NCBI GenBank assembly: GCA_945865325.1
Contig: CAMBFA010000020.1
Span: forward strand, 1 to 35,306
From: Candidatus Kuenenia stuttgartensis
GTDB lineage: Bacteria; Planctomycetota; Planctomycetia; Pirellulales; UBA1268
Direction: 5' to 3'
Length of the DNA stretch: 35,306 nucleotides
The translations under genes were made by a program, and so were the position numbers. Below, one piece after another: positions 19,044 to 25,880 of this stretch (positions within the stretch are counted from its first letter, which is position 1; every line of letters starts with the position of its first letter). The notes beneath the pieces are model-generated. The model was given only the letters and a program-made list of their open reading frames with translations. It was not told where the DNA came from and made no database searches.

Positions 19044-19065
19044 AAAAAGTGATGGGGCGTCACTT
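19044..19065 (-). terminator. Intrinsic terminator of the hydrolase gene
   Basis: On the minus strand AAGTGA, a 7-base loop, TCACTT and then a run of five T (19048-19044). The left arm is the last codon plus stop codon of the hydrolase gene. The stem is short (6 bp) but the U-run is good. It lies in the 21-base gap between convergent genes. Confidence 0.5.
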
Positions 19066-20910
19066 CACTCTGAGGCGCTTCACGAGCCAGTCTCGGACGG
19101 TGGCAAGGGCCACCGGCGCGAACGTCTCCTCGATCCGGTCGTATTCGCTGACAGCGCCGGTCATGCAAGTTTGGAAAAGGTGGTTGAGGCCCGGGAGCTC
19201 CTCGACGGTGGCGTCGGTGTTCCCGCCGGCGGCGAGCGCCTGGCGGATCGCCGGGAGATTGAGGGCCGGGTCGACCTGCACGTCCTTCTCGCCGACGATC
19301 GCGAGGACCGGGCAGGAGACCTTGGCCAGCGCCGTGGCGGGATCGTGGCCGATGAAAAACCGGAACCAGGGTGCCGAGAGGCGACGCAGGCCGTCGGCCA
19401 CGGCCGCGTCGAGCTGGGCCTTGGCGGCATCGTCGGCCTGTTCGATCTCGTCGGCGAGGTCGGCTCGGATCCGGGCGCCGGCCTTGGCGGCCAGCGCCGC
19501 CGGATCGGTGCTCTCGTCGGAGCCGCGCACGGCGTCGATCATCGCCTCCTGCATGATCCGCGAGCGCCGGATCTGATCGGCGCCGCCGAGGCCTTCCGAC
19601 TTGAGCACGAGCTCCCCCTGCGAGACGAGGATCCGCCCGCCGTCGACTCCCGTCCCGGCGAGCATGACGATGCCGGCGAGGTCGGTGCGACGCTCGGCGA
19701 GGAGCGCCGCGATCAATCCCCCTTCGCTGTGACCGACGATGCCGATCCGCGCCGGATCAATGCCAGGCTGCTTCTGGAGCCAGTCGATCCCCGCTTCGGC
19801 GTCGCGGGCGAAGTCGACGCTCGTCCCCTTCGTCGGATCCCCAGTCGAGCCGCCGACACCGCGGTCGTCGTAGCGGAGGACGGCGATCCCGGCCCGCGAC
19901 AGGACATCGGCGAGGACGAGGAAAGGCTTGTGATCCATGAGCGTCTCGTCACGGTCCTGCTGGCCGGAACCGGAGACGAGGACCACCGCCGGCCATGGCC
20001 CGGGCCCCCGCGGGAGCGTGAGCGTGCCGGCGAGTTCAACGCCGTCGTTGATATTGCGGAAGGCAGCCTCACGGGTGTCATACGGGAACGGGGGCTTGGG
20101 GGTCTGCGGCCGGCGCTTCTCCGGAATCGTCGCCGCGGCCGTATCAACAGCCACCTTCTCGAGGACCAATGGCAGGGTCACCCCCCCCTGCTTCCAGGAG
20201 CCGGTCAGCTTCCCGTCGGGCCCGAGCTTCCCGGCAAACTCCCCTTTCACCGCCGCCACCTTCATCGTCCAGGCATCGCCGGCCACCGTACGGACGGCAC
20301 GGAAGCCCCCCGCCTTCTGGCCGAGGCTATCCATGCGGAAGTCCTCCTTGCCGTCGGCCCCCTTCCCGCCCCGGAAGCGGAGCGGCAGTTTTTGGATGAC
20401 CGCGTCGAGCGTCCCGGCCCAAATCTCGTCGGCCGCCGGCGGCACCGCCTGCCCGGCGACTTTCCGGAAGGCGAGCGGCAGTTCCTGGCCCCGTTGCGTC
20501 CAGATACCAGTGGCGACGCCGTTGGCTTCGACTGCGGCCACGTAAACCGCGCCGGTCGCCTTGATCTCGAAGACGAGTTTTCCCCCGCCGTCGGAAAAGC
20601 GTTCGAGGGGGAAGCGCCGATCCCCTTCATCGAAGCTGTGGAGCCAGTGAACGAGTTTCCCCTGCTGACTGGCCGATTCGATGGCGAAGCGGAACTGCCG
20701 CTCCCCCGCGTCGAGCTCGCCGTACCACTGGGCAACATCCGCACCTTCCGCCGCCGCCTGCCTAACAGGCGAGGGGAGCAGGCCGGGGCCCGCCAGCAGT
20801 GCCGCCATGGCCACGATCGTCTCGCCCAGCTGGCGAAGGCCAAGCCAACAAACCCGCGGAAGACCTCCAGCGCATTTGGGCTCCGCAAAGCCACGAATGA
20901 AGCGCGACAT
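19060..20910 (-). CDS. Secreted alpha/beta hydrolase
   Basis: A 616-residue protein with an N-terminal hydrophobic segment (LGETIVAMAALLAGPGLLP, about residues 28-46) that looks like a signal sequence, followed by AAAEGA. A beta-rich region of about 220 residues, with repeated units such as WAGTLDAVIQKLPLRF and WYGELDAGERQFRFAI, precedes the hydrolase domain. In that domain, VVLVSGSGQQDRDE holds the oxyanion region and YDDRGVGGSTGD follows. GHSEGG carries the nucleophile Ser (about residue 393). VGEKDVQVD carries the acid and LPGLNHLF the His. The family includes serine esterases and peptidases acting on small substrates. The long pre-signal region makes the start uncertain; the chosen ATG has GGCGGA close upstream. 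It follows the L21 gene after 56 bases. Confidence 0.85.
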   Translation of the reverse strand: MSRFIRGFAEPKCAGGLPRVCWLGLRQLGETIVAMAALLAGPGLLPSPVRQAAAEGADVAQWYGELDAGERQFRFAIESASQQGKLVHWLHSFDEGDRRFPLERFSDGGGKLVFEIKATGAVYVAAVEANGVATGIWTQRGQELPLAFRKVAGQAVPPAADEIWAGTLDAVIQKLPLRFRGGKGADGKEDFRMDSLGQKAGGFRAVRTVAGDAWTMKVAAVKGEFAGKLGPDGKLTGSWKQGGVTLPLVLEKVAVDTAAATIPEKRRPQTPKPPFPYDTREAAFRNINDGVELAGTLTLPRGPGPWPAVVLVSGSGQQDRDETLMDHKPFLVLADVLSRAGIAVLRYDDRGVGGSTGDPTKGTSVDFARDAEAGIDWLQKQPGIDPARIGIVGHSEGGLIAALLAERRTDLAGIVMLAGTGVDGGRILVSQGELVLKSEGLGGADQIRRSRIMQEAMIDAVRGSDESTDPAALAAKAGARIRADLADEIEQADDAAKAQLDAAVADGLRRLSAPWFRFFIGHDPATALAKVSCPVLAIVGEKDVQVDPALNLPAIRQALAAGGNTDATVEELPGLNHLFQTCMTGAVSEYDRIEETFAPVALATVRDWLVKRLRVK

Positions 20911-20966
20911 CGATTCCGCCGGCAGGGCCGGCCCCTGCTGTGGCACACGGCTTAAAACAAAAACAC

Positions 20967-21341
20967 TCAGCCGGCGATCGAGGCGATCCGAATCTTCGTC
21001 GCAAGTGAACGGTGGCCGGTGCGACGGCGGTAGTTCTTGCGGCGGGCGAACTTCTGCACGTAGATCTTGTCTCCCTGAACGGGGCCGATCACGGCAGCCT
21101 TCACGGTCGCCCCCTTCACCACCGGCTTGCCGAGGGTCAACTTTCCCCCCTTGCTGATGGCGAGCACCCTTTCGAACACCAACTCACTCCCGGGAGCGAG
21201 ATGGCGAAAGTCGATCTCGAACTCCTGCCCTTCGCTGACGCGATACTGCCGGCCGCCGTCCACCACGATCGCATAGTGCTCTCCCGAGCCGGCCAGGGTG
21301 GCGGCGGAAGCGGGGGCGGCGGAGGTGTTGGACTTGGCCAT
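20967..21341 (-). CDS. rplU: 50S ribosomal protein L21
   Basis: A 124-residue ribosomal protein. After an N-terminal Ala/Ser-rich extension of about 20 residues (MAKSNTSAAPASAATLAGSG) comes the L21 core: YAIVVDGGRQYRVSEGQEFEIDF, followed by IGPVQGDKIYVQKFARRKNYRRRTGHR, the RNA-binding signature. The core alone is about 103 residues, the usual length, so the extension is a lineage feature or a start misjudged upstream; no in-frame ATG lies at the core. It binds 23S rRNA near the exit side and works with L20. The gene follows RNase E/G, a common arrangement, but the usual partner rpmA (L27) does not follow. A hairpin lies in the 156-base gap upstream. Confidence 0.95.
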   Translation of the reverse strand: MAKSNTSAAPASAATLAGSGEHYAIVVDGGRQYRVSEGQEFEIDFRHLAPGSELVFERVLAISKGGKLTLGKPVVKGATVKAAVIGPVQGDKIYVQKFARRKNYRRRTGHRSLATKIRIASIAG

Positions 21342-21434
21342 GATGAAAACCCACGGGTCTGAAGGGGAAGGAAGCCTGGAATCGAGCTTTTTAGGGTAGC
21401 GACGACGGGGGCGAAGGTCGAGAGGGGCCGAAAT

Positions 21435-21473
21435 CCCCCCGGTTCGGCCAGAAAATAGGGCCGAACCGGGGGG
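21435..21473. terminator. Perfect 15-bp inverted repeat between RNase E/G and L21
   Basis: CCCCCCGGTTCGGCC and its exact complement are separated by nine bases (21450-21458). The repeat sits 24 bases after the RNase E/G stop and 93 bases before the L21 start. On the minus strand it would form a very stable stem-loop followed by only ATTT. It could be a terminator, attenuator or RNA-processing site that sets L21 output apart from that of the upstream genes. Confidence 0.65.
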
Positions 21474-21497: not shown

Positions 21498-23102
21498 TCA
21501 GGGGAAGCGCACGGTCCGACCGCTGGTGTCGGAGGCTTCCCAGACGAGGTGCTCCGGAGAGACGCTCTCGCGGCCGACGACGTGGAGTTGGATGTGGACC
21601 GTATCCTCGAACTGCGCCACCTCGCGACGCTTGCGGTTGTTGATCCAGGTCGCCACCTCGTCGTGGACGGTGACGTTAAGCCGGGCGATATCGGTGCGGG
21701 CGGCCGACAACTGCAGCACGCGCATCACCTCGATCGCCATGCTCTCGGGCGTCTTCACCATCCCGGTGCCGGTGCAGGTGGGGCAGTCGCGGAAGATGCT
21801 CTTCCGCAACGACGGCCTGATCCGCTGCCGGGTCATCTCGATGAGCCCGAACGGGCTCGTGCGGAGGATCTTCGTCCGCGCCCGGTCGCGCTTCATCGCG
21901 TCATGGAGGGCCTTCTCGACCCCGCGGCGGTATTTCTCCTTCCGCATGTCGATGAAGTCGTTGACGATCACGCCGCCGAGATCCCGCAGCCGCAGTTGGC
22001 GGGCGATCTCCCGGGCGGCGATGAGGTTCATCTGGTAGGCATTCTCCTCAGCGCTCTTCTCGGTACGGAACGAGCCGGAGTTGACGTCGATTGCCACGAG
22101 GGCTTCGGTCTGGTCGATGACGATCGACCCGCCCCCCTTGAGTGGCACCTTCCGCTGGTGGATGCGGCCGATCTCCTCCTCCAGTCCGTAGCGATGGAAG
22201 AGCGGCTCTTTTCCCTCGTAGAGCTGGAGGCGCGGGGCGTATTTCGGCATCACGAGCTCCAGGAACTCGCGGGCCCGCTCGTAGGCCGCCGGCTCGTCAA
22301 TGAGGATCCGCCCCACGTCCTCCGTGAACATGTCACGGATGGTGCGGATGATCATGTCGCTCTCCTGGTAGATGTCGATCGGAGCGGAATACTTCCGCAT
22401 CCGACGGACGATCGACTTCCAGAGCCGAAGAAGGTAGGCCATGTCGCGGGCCATCTCCCCCTTTGTCCGCTCGGTGCCGGCGGTACGGACAACGAAGCCG
22501 ACCCCCTTGGGTGGCTTGAGATCGAGCATGATGTCCCGGAGGACGCGGCGGTCGTGCTCGTCGTCGATCTTCTTCGAGATCCCCACCCGCCCCAGCGGCG
22601 GCATGAGGACGAGATACCGACCGGGGATCGAGATGTAGGTGGAGAGGGTCGGCCCCTTCGTGCCGAAGCCCTCCTTGATCACCTGCACGAGGACCTCGTC
22701 ACCGCGCCGCAGGACATCCTGGATCGGCGGCTTGACGCGCGGCCGGTCGCCCAGGCGCGGACGGCGGCGGGCACGGGCGGCAGCATCTCCGTCGGCCCCC
22801 TCGGCGACCTTGCCGGCCGGCTCGGGCACCTCGAAGGCCTTGTCGGGATCGAGCCCCCCCTGCCGGTAATACTGCGGCTCGACGTCGCTGATATGGAGGA
22901 AGCCGTTGCGGCCGACGCCGAAGTCGACGAACGCCGCCTGGATGCTCGGCTCGATGTTGACAATCCGCCCCTTGTAGATGTTGCCGACGTGGTTGTCCTG
23001 GCTGGTTCGCTCGACGTAGAGCTCCTCGAGGACCCCGTCCTCCATGATCGCGATCCGGCATTCCTCCGGCTGCGACACGTTGATCAGCATTTCCTGTTTC
23101 AT
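21498..23102 (-). CDS. Ribonuclease E/G family protein
   Basis: A 534-residue endoribonuclease that cuts single-stranded AU-rich RNA, working in mRNA decay and rRNA/tRNA processing. The S1 domain starts at NIYKGRIVNIEPSIQAAFVD and GFLHISDVEP. It carries an insertion of about 40 residues rich in Ala, Arg and Gly. The DNase I-like catalytic part includes VAIDVNSGSF and VIVNDFIDM, with the two Mg2+-binding Asp. CPTCTGTG is the zinc-link motif joining subunits. The protein ends soon after it, so it lacks the long E. coli RNase E scaffold. RNase G and RNase E cores cannot be told apart by eye. The start MKQEMLINVSQPEECRIAI is canonical. It is 52 bases after ptsI and upstream of rplU. Confidence 0.94.
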   Translation of the reverse strand: MKQEMLINVSQPEECRIAIMEDGVLEELYVERTSQDNHVGNIYKGRIVNIEPSIQAAFVDFGVGRNGFLHISDVEPQYYRQGGLDPDKAFEVPEPAGKVAEGADGDAAARARRRPRLGDRPRVKPPIQDVLRRGDEVLVQVIKEGFGTKGPTLSTYISIPGRYLVLMPPLGRVGISKKIDDEHDRRVLRDIMLDLKPPKGVGFVVRTAGTERTKGEMARDMAYLLRLWKSIVRRMRKYSAPIDIYQESDMIIRTIRDMFTEDVGRILIDEPAAYERAREFLELVMPKYAPRLQLYEGKEPLFHRYGLEEEIGRIHQRKVPLKGGGSIVIDQTEALVAIDVNSGSFRTEKSAEENAYQMNLIAAREIARQLRLRDLGGVIVNDFIDMRKEKYRRGVEKALHDAMKRDRARTKILRTSPFGLIEMTRQRIRPSLRKSIFRDCPTCTGTGMVKTPESMAIEVMRVLQLSAARTDIARLNVTVHDEVATWINNRKRREVAQFEDTVHIQLHVVGRESVSPEHLVWEASDTSGRTVRFP

Positions 23103-23154: not shown

Positions 23155-24894
23155 TCAGGCGACCGACTCGGAGAGCAGGCGACGCATCTGGTCGCGCAAG
23201 AAGGCCTTCACCTCACGGGCGCTGTCCATGGCCAGCGCCCGCTCGGCAATTCCGCGGCACTCGGCGACCGAAACACTTCGGCACACCTGCTTGATTTCCG
23301 GGATCGCGCTGGCCGGTACGCTCATCTGGCGCAGGCCGAGTCCCAGAAGGAGCTGCGTGTACATCACGCTGCCGCTCATCTGTCCGCAAACGTTGGCCGG
23401 CACGCCGGCCTCCCGCGCCACGTCCAGCGAGCGCCGCAACTGTCGCAGCACCGCCGGATCGCACGCGTTGTAAAGCTCTGCCACCTCCTTGTTGCCCCGA
23501 TCGACCGCCAGCGTGTACTGGATCAGGTCGTTGGTGCCGATCGACACGAAGTCGACCTCCCGGATGAAGGCATCGAGCATGATCACCGCCGCCGGCGTCT
23601 CGACCATCATCCCCACCGGCATCTTCGGATTGAACGCGATGCCGTGCTCCGCCAGGTCCTCCATCACGTCCGCGAGCACCATCCGCGCCTGCCGCAACTC
23701 GACGATCGTGGAGACGAGCGGAAAGAGGACGCGAACGTCGCCGATGGCACTAGCGCGGAGGATGGCGCGCAATTGCGTGCGAAACATCGGCAGCTGCCGC
23801 AGCGACAGCCGGATGCTCCGCAGGCCGAGGCAGGGATTGCGCTCCTCCTCCGGCGTCTTCTCGGTGCGCATCTTGTCGGCGCCGAGATCGAGCGTGCGGA
23901 TCACCACCGGCTTGTCATTGATCGAGCGGACCACCTCGCTATAGGCGGCGAAATGATCCTCCTCGGTTGGCTCGCGGGGGCTCGTCAGATAGAGGAATTC
24001 GGTGCGGTAGAGGCCGATGCCGTCGCAGCCGCGGGAAAGGCACTGCTCGACCTCGCTGGGAAACTCGATGTTCCCCGTCACCTGGATGCGGACGCCGTCG
24101 GTCGTCTCGGCGGGGAGATCGCGGAGGCCGTCGAGGCGAGCGGCGACGGTCCGGGCCGTCTCCACCTCGAGGCGGTAGCGGGCGATTGTCTCCTCGTCGG
24201 GCTGGAGGATCACGATCCCCTGGTTGCCGTCGAGGATCACCGGCTCGCCGCCGGAGACATCGGCGAGGAACGGCCCGAGGCCGACGACGGCCGGGATCTC
24301 GAGCCCCTCGGCGACGATCGCGGTGTGGCTGCCCGGGCCGCCGAGCTCGGTGGCGAAGCCCTGGACAAACCGGCGGTCGAGGTTTGCCGTCTCGCTGGGG
24401 GTGAGGTTGTGAGCGAGAACGATCACCGGCTGCGAGATCGCCGCAAGCGTCTCCCGCCGCTGGCCGAGGAGGTTCCGCAGCAGGCTCTTCTCGATGTCGT
24501 AGATGTCGTGGGCGCGCTGCGCGATGTGGTTGTCGAGGTTTTGGAACACCTTCGCGTAGCGGCGGAGCGTCCGGCTGACGGCGTATTCGGGCCAGAAGTT
24601 CTTATCGCGAACGGCGCTGGTCAGCTCCGCCTGGAGCTTGGCGTCGTGGAGCATCGCCAGATGGGCGGCAAAGATGGCGGCGTACTGGCCACCGAGCTCG
24701 GCCTGGATGGCGTCGCGGTTGCGCTCGATCTCGCGGCTGGTCTCGGCGACGGCGTTGGCAAGCCGCTCGAGCTCGGTGTCGACGGCACTGCGGGCCACGA
24801 ACCGGCGCGGGATACGAAATCCCTCGCTGTCGAGGACGAGCGCCTCGCCGATCGTGACGCCGGGTGAAACGGCGATTCCCTGGAGTTTGAGCAT
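23155..24894 (-). CDS. ptsI: PTS enzyme I
   Basis: A 579-residue phosphoenolpyruvate:protein phosphotransferase, first enzyme of the PTS phosphorelay in the cytoplasm. It autophosphorylates on a His with PEP and hands phosphate to HPr. H190 lies in GGPGSHTAIVAEG, where E. coli enzyme I has H189. The HPr-binding helices precede it (YDIEKSLLRNLLGQR). The PEP-binding barrel has RTEFLY, RTLDLGADK, GIMVETPA-like GMMVETPAAV, TNDLIQYTLAVDR and the catalytic Cys in CGQMSG. There is no N-terminal GAF domain, so it is the PtsI rather than the PtsP form. The start MLKLQGIAVSPG is canonical; the frame extends 32 codons upstream without similarity. HPr is encoded upstream after a 173-base gap holding a strong hairpin. 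Confidence 0.96.
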   Translation of the reverse strand: MLKLQGIAVSPGVTIGEALVLDSEGFRIPRRFVARSAVDTELERLANAVAETSREIERNRDAIQAELGGQYAAIFAAHLAMLHDAKLQAELTSAVRDKNFWPEYAVSRTLRRYAKVFQNLDNHIAQRAHDIYDIEKSLLRNLLGQRRETLAAISQPVIVLAHNLTPSETANLDRRFVQGFATELGGPGSHTAIVAEGLEIPAVVGLGPFLADVSGGEPVILDGNQGIVILQPDEETIARYRLEVETARTVAARLDGLRDLPAETTDGVRIQVTGNIEFPSEVEQCLSRGCDGIGLYRTEFLYLTSPREPTEEDHFAAYSEVVRSINDKPVVIRTLDLGADKMRTEKTPEEERNPCLGLRSIRLSLRQLPMFRTQLRAILRASAIGDVRVLFPLVSTIVELRQARMVLADVMEDLAEHGIAFNPKMPVGMMVETPAAVIMLDAFIREVDFVSIGTNDLIQYTLAVDRGNKEVAELYNACDPAVLRQLRRSLDVAREAGVPANVCGQMSGSVMYTQLLLGLGLRQMSVPASAIPEIKQVCRSVSVAECRGIAERALAMDSAREVKAFLRDQMRRLLSESVA

Positions 24895-25027
24895 GGGGCG
24901 CAGCCAAGCCGCCGGCGCGGAAACGGTGCCGGGGAGATCGCACGGCCCAATGGCTGCGATCCAATCCCCACCCCGGTTCGCGCCAGGCAACTGGTCGCGG
25001 CTCCTTAGGTTGTGTCGGAGTCGGTCT

Positions 25028-25052
25028 TCCGTCGGCCCCCGGGGCCGGCGGA
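25028..25052. repeat. 12-bp near-perfect inverted repeat between HPr and enzyme I genes
   Basis: TCCGTCGGCCCC, one central C, GGGGCCGGCGGA, with a single G-T pair. It starts 15 bases after the HPr stop codon, where a terminator or 3'-protective stem is expected. There is no U-run. It could lower enzyme I relative to HPr. Confidence 0.5.
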
Positions 25053-25067
25053 CAAAGTCAGTTCATC

Positions 25068-25385
25068 TCACGGCGTCGTGGTCCGCCCGGCGGTGTTCAC
25101 GGCCGTCTCGTCGTTCTCATGAAAATTGCCGTCGAAAAGCCGCACGATCGCGGCGAGTGCCTCGGTGGCATCAGGTCCGGTGACCTCCACCACCAGCCTC
25201 GTCCCCTCCTCGGCGGCAAGCGTCAGCACCTCGAGGATGCTCTTGCCGTCGACCCGCTGCGACATGGAAACCAGTTCGATCCTCGATTGCCACTTCCGCG
25301 CCTCACGCGCGAGCATGTCCGCAGGCCGGGCATGGAGCCCCTGCTTCAATCCCACCACGACATCCCGAGAGACCACCTGCTGCAT
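25068..25385 (-). CDS. ptsH: Phosphocarrier protein HPr
   Basis: A 105-residue phosphocarrier passing phosphate from enzyme I to EIIA proteins. H18 in QGLHARPADML is the active-site histidine, followed by Arg and Pro as in all HPr proteins. S49 in DGKSILEVLTL occupies the regulatory serine position (Ser46 of Gram-positive HPr), so HPr kinase control is possible, but no kinase gene is in the window. A C-terminal tail of about 15 residues (ENDETAVNTAGRTTTP) is unusual and disordered-looking; typical HPr has 85-90 residues. It starts 18 bases after the EIIA gene, so the pair is co-transcribed, and is separated from ptsI by 173 bases. Confidence 0.95.
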   Translation of the reverse strand: MQQVVSRDVVVGLKQGLHARPADMLAREARKWQSRIELVSMSQRVDGKSILEVLTLAAEEGTRLVVEVTGPDATEALAAIVRLFDGNFHENDETAVNTAGRTTTP

Positions 25386-25403
25386 CGAAAGCCACCGTCT
25401 CCG

Positions 25404-25880
25404 TCAAGACACCATGCCATGGTTGTCGGCCGCCTCCAGCAGATGCTGGATGTCAGCCGGAGCCTTTGCCGCCTTCAATTCCCGGCAAAACGCATCGTCG
25501 CGCAGCTGCCGGGAGATGTTCTCGAGCGCCCGCAGATGCTGACCGGGCTGATCGGGGGGGGAGACGAGGAGGAAGAAAAGATGGACCGGATCGCCGTCGA
25601 GGCTGTCGAAGTCGATCCCCTCCTGACTCACCGCCACCGTTCCCACCAGCCGATCAGCGCTGGGGTGCTTTGTGTGCGGCACCGCCACCCCGCGCCCAAT
25701 GCCGGTGGTCCCCAGGTCTTCGCGTTTCAGAATCGCCTTGACGATGCTTTCGAGATCGGAGGCAGGGATCCGGCCGGCCTCGACCAGCGCCGTCGCCATC
25801 TCCCGGATCACCCCCTCCTTTGTCGACGAATCGACGTGGGAGCGGATCGCATCTGTCGCGACGAAATCGGAAAACTTCAT
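25404..25880 (-). CDS. PTS EIIA protein, fructose/nitrogen-regulatory type
   Basis: A 158-residue EIIA domain of the PtsN/fructose type. H69 in GIGRGVAVPHTKHPSADRLV is the phosphorylated histidine in the family motif GxGxGxAxPHxK. The N-terminal stretch MKFSDFVATDAIRSHVDSSTKEGVIREMATAL is the usual first helix pair. The protein has no EIIB or EIIC domain and none is encoded nearby, so it probably ends a regulatory phosphorelay like PtsN rather than feeding sugar transport. The HPF gene lies 147 bases upstream, the same association as in proteobacterial hpf-ptsN. HPr follows 18 bases downstream. No target can be predicted from the sequence. Confidence 0.93.
   Translation of the reverse strand: MKFSDFVATDAIRSHVDSSTKEGVIREMATALVEAGRIPASDLESIVKAILKREDLGTTGIGRGVAVPHTKHPSADRLVGTVAVSQEGIDFDSLDGDPVHLFFLLVSPPDQPGQHLRALENISRQLRDDAFCRELKAAKAPADIQHLLEAADNHGMVS

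Follow-up and report, generated by a model that had tools for sequence, protein, structure and literature searches.

A perfect 15-bp inverted repeat lies between the gene for an RNase E/G family ribonuclease and that for ribosomal protein L21, and the question it raises is whether it ends the ribonuclease transcript, adjusts the expression of the two genes relative to each other, or acts at the level of DNA. The window, i.e. the whole 35,306 nt stretch of DNA that was analysed, is a contig of a metagenome-assembled genome (MAG) of 4.4 Mb in 298 contigs (89% complete), and the RNase E/G relatives with names at 99% identity are planctomycete MAGs. The features of the locus, in the order in which they are read, are as follows.

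25404-25880, minus strand: PtsN/EIIA-like gene, upstream of rne/rng and co-directional with it
25068-25385, minus strand: HPr gene, upstream of rne/rng and co-directional with it
23155-24990, minus strand: PTS enzyme I gene, upstream of rne/rng and co-directional with it
21498-23102, minus strand: rne/rng, Rne/Rng family ribonuclease (TIGR00757, 492.5 bits, cut-off 325.95); stop codon 21500-21498
21435-21473, minus strand: hairpin with a perfect 15 bp stem and a 9-nt loop, starting 24 nt past the rne/rng stop codon
21427-21434, minus strand: short U tract, ATTTCGGC, with 3 T in 8 nt
21416-21421, minus strand: TCGACC, putative -35 hexamer of an rplU promoter, 13 nt after the stem and conserved in the family
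21393-21398, minus strand: TACCCT (TANNNT), putative -10 hexamer, 17 nt from the -35
20967-21341, minus strand: rplU, ribosomal protein L21 (TIGR00061, 93.7 bits, cut-off 43.7), downstream of the hairpin

The minus-strand order is thus PtsN/EIIA-like, HPr, PTS enzyme I, rne/rng and rplU, and, going by spacing only, the PTS genes (23155-25880) are perhaps on one transcript with rne/rng. From the stop codon of rne/rng to the start of rplU (21341) there are 156 nt. Both flanking genes are encoded on the minus strand, so the RNA through the hairpin runs from 21473 to 21435.

An earlier note, made from the sequence of the window, had described the repeat and its place between RNase E/G and L21, and both descriptions agree with what we find: the two arms (21435-21449 and 21459-21473) are 15 nt each and 100% complementary with 9 nt between them, and the protein family matches identify the genes on either side. 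The loop reads CTATTTTCT on the minus strand, and the stem is followed directly in the RNA by ATTTCGGCCC; the ATTT that had been reported after the stem is present on this strand. The further claim that the repeat stands far above background is well founded. The folding energy of the 39-nt hairpin is -34.5 kcal/mol, against a mean of -16.6 for 200 shuffles, none of which is as low. When 39-nt windows were drawn at random from the same genome (any overlapping the hairpin being left out), none of 20,000 reached this value, and 3 of 20,000 did so when the windows were placed outside called genes. A search of 706,006 bases of the genome for perfect stems with a 3-12 nt loop gives two of 15 bp and 11 of at least 13 bp, compared with none of the latter in three Markov shuffles. 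A single arm, allowing up to one mismatch, is found at three further sites genome-wide, and there is no second inverted-pair copy in the genome with up to one mismatch per arm. An Rfam scan gives no family at the gathering score, and the permissive matches at the hairpin are mostly to eukaryotic microRNA models, which fit any perfect hairpin. A consensus terminator scan does not call the hairpin; it needs a loop of 3-8 nt and at least five T in eight, neither of which the hairpin has.

The earlier note had suggested that related genomes be compared for compensatory changes, and these are present. The stem was aligned across eight same-genus loci (G000, G021, G025, G026, G027, G028, G030 and G031), of which G021 and G026 are the same, leaving seven that are distinct. 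Standard pairs occupy 103 of the 105 stem cells in these seven, with both exceptions at the outermost pair; four of the 15 pairs (three interior pairs and the terminal one) have changed on both sides and ten are invariant. When the partners are slid by 1-3 columns as a control, no pair has changed on both sides. The covariation score is reached by 1 of 500 shuffles, a value that comes from a small and related sample and is inflated by that relatedness. The orientation of the changes is also informative: the only two interior cells that are not Watson-Crick are a U-G in G027 and a G-U in G031 when read on the minus strand, and the same two cells would be C-A mismatches in a plus-strand RNA. The restriction of these G-U cells to the sense strand suggests that the RNA is made in the direction from rne to rplU, and the compensatory changes, by which pairing is preserved on the transcribed strand, mark the stem as a maintained RNA structure.

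Two same-genus loci have lost the aligned stem and carry a hairpin of other sequence in the same slot. One is L041, the second rne locus of G021 (-39.1 kcal/mol, z -6.2), in which the hairpin is followed by TGTTTTT; the other is L014, in G023 (-50.5 kcal/mol, z -2.7). G022 and G029 have no rne match, and G024 has the N-terminal part of rne only. G021 carries two rne-rplU loci, L041 and L007, with different intergenic hairpins and best hits of 100% and 96% over the protein, and may be a mixed bin.

The feature of the hairpin that fits a terminator least well is its tail. There are three U in the eight nucleotides after the stem, one short of the four or more that serve as the threshold for 3′ ends in PMC13289151 and are taken here to define a U-rich tract. 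The earlier note had taken the weak ATTT to argue against simple termination, but a short tail does not exclude it: four of ten same-genus loci have at least four T in the eight nucleotides after the stem (six of ten have fewer), and several other gene-end hairpins in this genome are likewise without a T tract. This last point comes from a census of 706 of the 4,423 kb, in which a home-made gene caller based on codon usage gave 449 genes and a coding fraction of 0.82. Eight of the 11 perfect stems of at least 13 bp follow a called stop codon by no more than 80 nt, two are in called genes and one is elsewhere; random 32-mers are in such a position in 3.55% of cases, for a binomial probability of about 4e-10. 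One of these gene-end stems, C17:9077, does have a T tract (TTTTTTTT), and three others (C2:14488, C17:22774 and C16:30758) are located 16-23 nt past stop codons with no coding-side T tract. A U-poor tail is therefore not peculiar to the hairpin between rne/rng and rplU.

Alignment of the intergenic gaps shows that the conserved block is not the hairpin itself but a sequence after it, CCCC[T/A]CTCGACC-N17-TANNNT. The core of this element, TCGACC-17-TANNNT, is found ahead of rplU at 51 of the 62 loci from the family, with a spacing of 17 in all 51. Of the 63 genomes with an L21 match, 60 supply these 62 loci (three partial matches were left out and two genomes gave two loci each), and the 51 comprise 46 of the 48 loci with a mapped L21 start and five of the 14 others; the 11 lacking the element are three of genus g7 and eight of genus g11. 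The element stays with rplU in all 17 genomes in which rne and rplU are 1.6-7.1 kb apart on one contig. The pattern occurs twice in the 1.41 million positions of its own genome, and a looser form shows no enrichment genome-wide (nine matches compared with 12 for the reversed pattern). A simple promoter scan does not list the element, and its hexamers fit the E. coli consensus poorly. With no genome-wide enrichment, identification as a promoter comes solely from conservation at rplU, and on this basis the element (21421-21393 in the window, minus strand) is probably the rplU promoter; typical spacing would place the start of rplU transcription near 21386. The loci of the 17 family genomes with rne/rng and rplU so far apart include L042, L044 and L046-L049.

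The hairpin is distributed differently. The slot was examined in 59 distinct family loci. In 30 of them the element lies within reach of the end of rne, and in ten of these 30 adjacent promoter-bearing loci the distance from the rne stop to the -35 is only 14 or 23 nt, which leaves no room for a hairpin. Three loci of genus g2 (L022, L027 and L052) have hairpins in which TTTTCT follows the GC stem, about 5 to 15 nt before the -35; a comparable hairpin is missing in many family loci, and no alignable hairpin is seen by eye in more distant Pirellulales (68-74% identity). Folding energies across the family were not used as evidence because they have no null and GC-rich stretches fold well everywhere. 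Some genera thus have the hairpin and most have the promoter element, which argues for a replaceable boundary signal and against a conserved RNase E/G circuit.

We propose that the hairpin is a 3′-end signal of the rne/rng transcript (perhaps with the PTS genes), setting the rplU promoter apart from it, and consider this reading likely. A GC-rich 15-bp stem would form in the nascent RNA directly past the rne/rng stop codon, and the stem with its short U tract (ATTT) would terminate transcription, at least partly, and/or protect the 3′ end. RNA polymerase would, at some frequency, stop at this site, and the rne/rng transcript would thereby be split from rplU, whose own putative promoter, TCGACC-17-TACCCT, begins 13 nt further on. 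The best reading of the type of signal is either an intrinsic terminator with a short U-tract or a 3′-end-stabilising hairpin; for classification we would place it as working like an intrinsic terminator without being a canonical member, and it is most likely a gene-boundary signal of a common type, though its U tail is unusually short. Location, covariation, the replacement hairpins, the promoter-like element and the census of gene-end stems speak for a 3′-end signal; against it are the short U tract, the lack of a scanner call, the weak promoter match, and the loci in which the element or the hairpin is missing.

The main rival explanation differs in what ends transcription, in that Rho would terminate diffusely downstream and 3′-5′ exonucleases would then degrade the RNA as far as the stem, a structure that would shield the rne/rng mRNA without being a terminator itself. 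The poor U tract would suit such a process, as would the three gene-end stems without a coding-side T tract (C2:14488, C17:22774 and C16:30758) and the presence of a rho gene in the genome (641.4 bits), and GC hairpin ends without a U-tract are described for E. coli in PMC13289151. However, with the rplU promoter only 13 nt away, Rho would have to act inside that promoter or the rplU leader, and relatives have fuller T tracts in the same slot (TGTTTTT at L041, TTTTCT at L022, L027 and L052); we regard this explanation as unlikely.

The remaining alternatives are weaker still. The hairpin could set the rne/rng:rplU ratio within one long transcript, acting as a partial terminator or a processing site, by attenuation or by autoregulation of RNase E/G, as the earlier note had raised. 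The genes are co-directional across a 156-nt gap and an imperfect U tract permits readthrough, but the hairpin comes after the rne/rng coding region rather than before it, other genera with the same two genes side by side have a hairpin of different sequence or none, and rplU has its own promoter-like element 13 nt on, which is kept even where rne is distant. The suggestion thus finds no support in these data and we consider it improbable; RNase E/G autoregulation in particular was rejected on the location 3′ of rne/rng and on the lack of conservation across genera. Least probable of all, and by our estimate very improbable, is that the repeat works as DNA, either as an operator for a regulator of the rplU promoter or as a mobile REP-like repeat. 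Its position just upstream of the putative -35, near that of an activator site or UP element, would be in keeping with an operator, but changes inside the stem are compensated, the intermediates being G-U pairs on one strand; the sequence at this place is unrelated in two same-genus loci, and the repeat is missing in genomes that have the same promoter element. There is also no other inverted-pair copy in the genome, and a REP-like repeat element was rejected on the finding of only one inverted copy at up to one mismatch per arm.

The hairpin can be compared with several known systems. The RNase E autoregulatory element of E. coli is part of the 5′ region of rne and is conserved together with that gene, whereas the hairpin here is 3′ of rne/rng. 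The L21 leader is an Rfam family of rplU leaders and shares with the hairpin a location upstream of rplU, but the hairpin has no Rfam match and, because it is upstream of the putative rplU promoter, it is outside the rplU leader; a ribosomal leader was rejected on these two grounds. Intrinsic (Rho-independent) terminators of the E. coli type are alike in having a stable GC-rich hairpin soon after the stop codon, followed by T's, and compensatory change in relatives, but differ in that the hairpin here has only three T in eight nucleotides, a long 15-bp stem and a 9-nt loop. Whether termination needs a U tract is reportedly in dispute, to judge by the titles of Czyz 2014 and Ahmad 2020. Mycobacterial 'I-shaped' terminators, which in PMC12288462 have no poly-U tail, occur within 50 bp of the stop codon and are of disputed activity, resemble it in their strong hairpin no more than 50 nt from the stop codon and little or no U tail, and other gene ends in this genome are similar; the host here, however, is of a different phylum, and the hairpin is a predicted terminator. 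The stabilising REP-like 3′ hairpins without a U-tract that form E. coli ends after Rho-dependent termination (PMC13289151) also combine a strong 3′ hairpin with a weak U tract, but the hairpin here is single copy, belongs to no repeat family, and has a promoter-like element immediately after it. The hairpin falls within known kinds, with nothing outside them. A literature search found no paper on rne-rplU in planctomycetes, and for Planctomycetes and terminators there was no organism-specific study among the 20 matches listed of 230.

It is possible, though in our view doubtful, that many transcripts of this planctomycete genus end at long, GC-rich hairpins whose U tract is short or lacking altogether, like the claimed mycobacterial I-shaped terminators, as a phylum-level form of U-poor 3′-end formation. 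If so, the hairpin would be a clean covarying example, 13 nt before a ribosomal promoter. Poor-U gene-end hairpins in a high-GC planctomycete bear on the reach of U-poor hairpins as transcript ends beyond mycobacteria. It is a modest, testable case, and neither the hairpin nor the promoter element alone alters current understanding; the family-wide TCGACC-17-TANNNT is a candidate housekeeping promoter for an uncultured planctomycete family. The gene following rplU is not rpmA but a hydrolase/esterase-like gene (19060-20946), and rpmA (L27) is on a different contig (G000:C1:39866-40105, L234). The genome has two Rho-like genes, L231 (G000:C120) and L232 (G000:C37), of which one, at 641.4 bits, is over the cut-off and the other scores 472.6 against 509.45.
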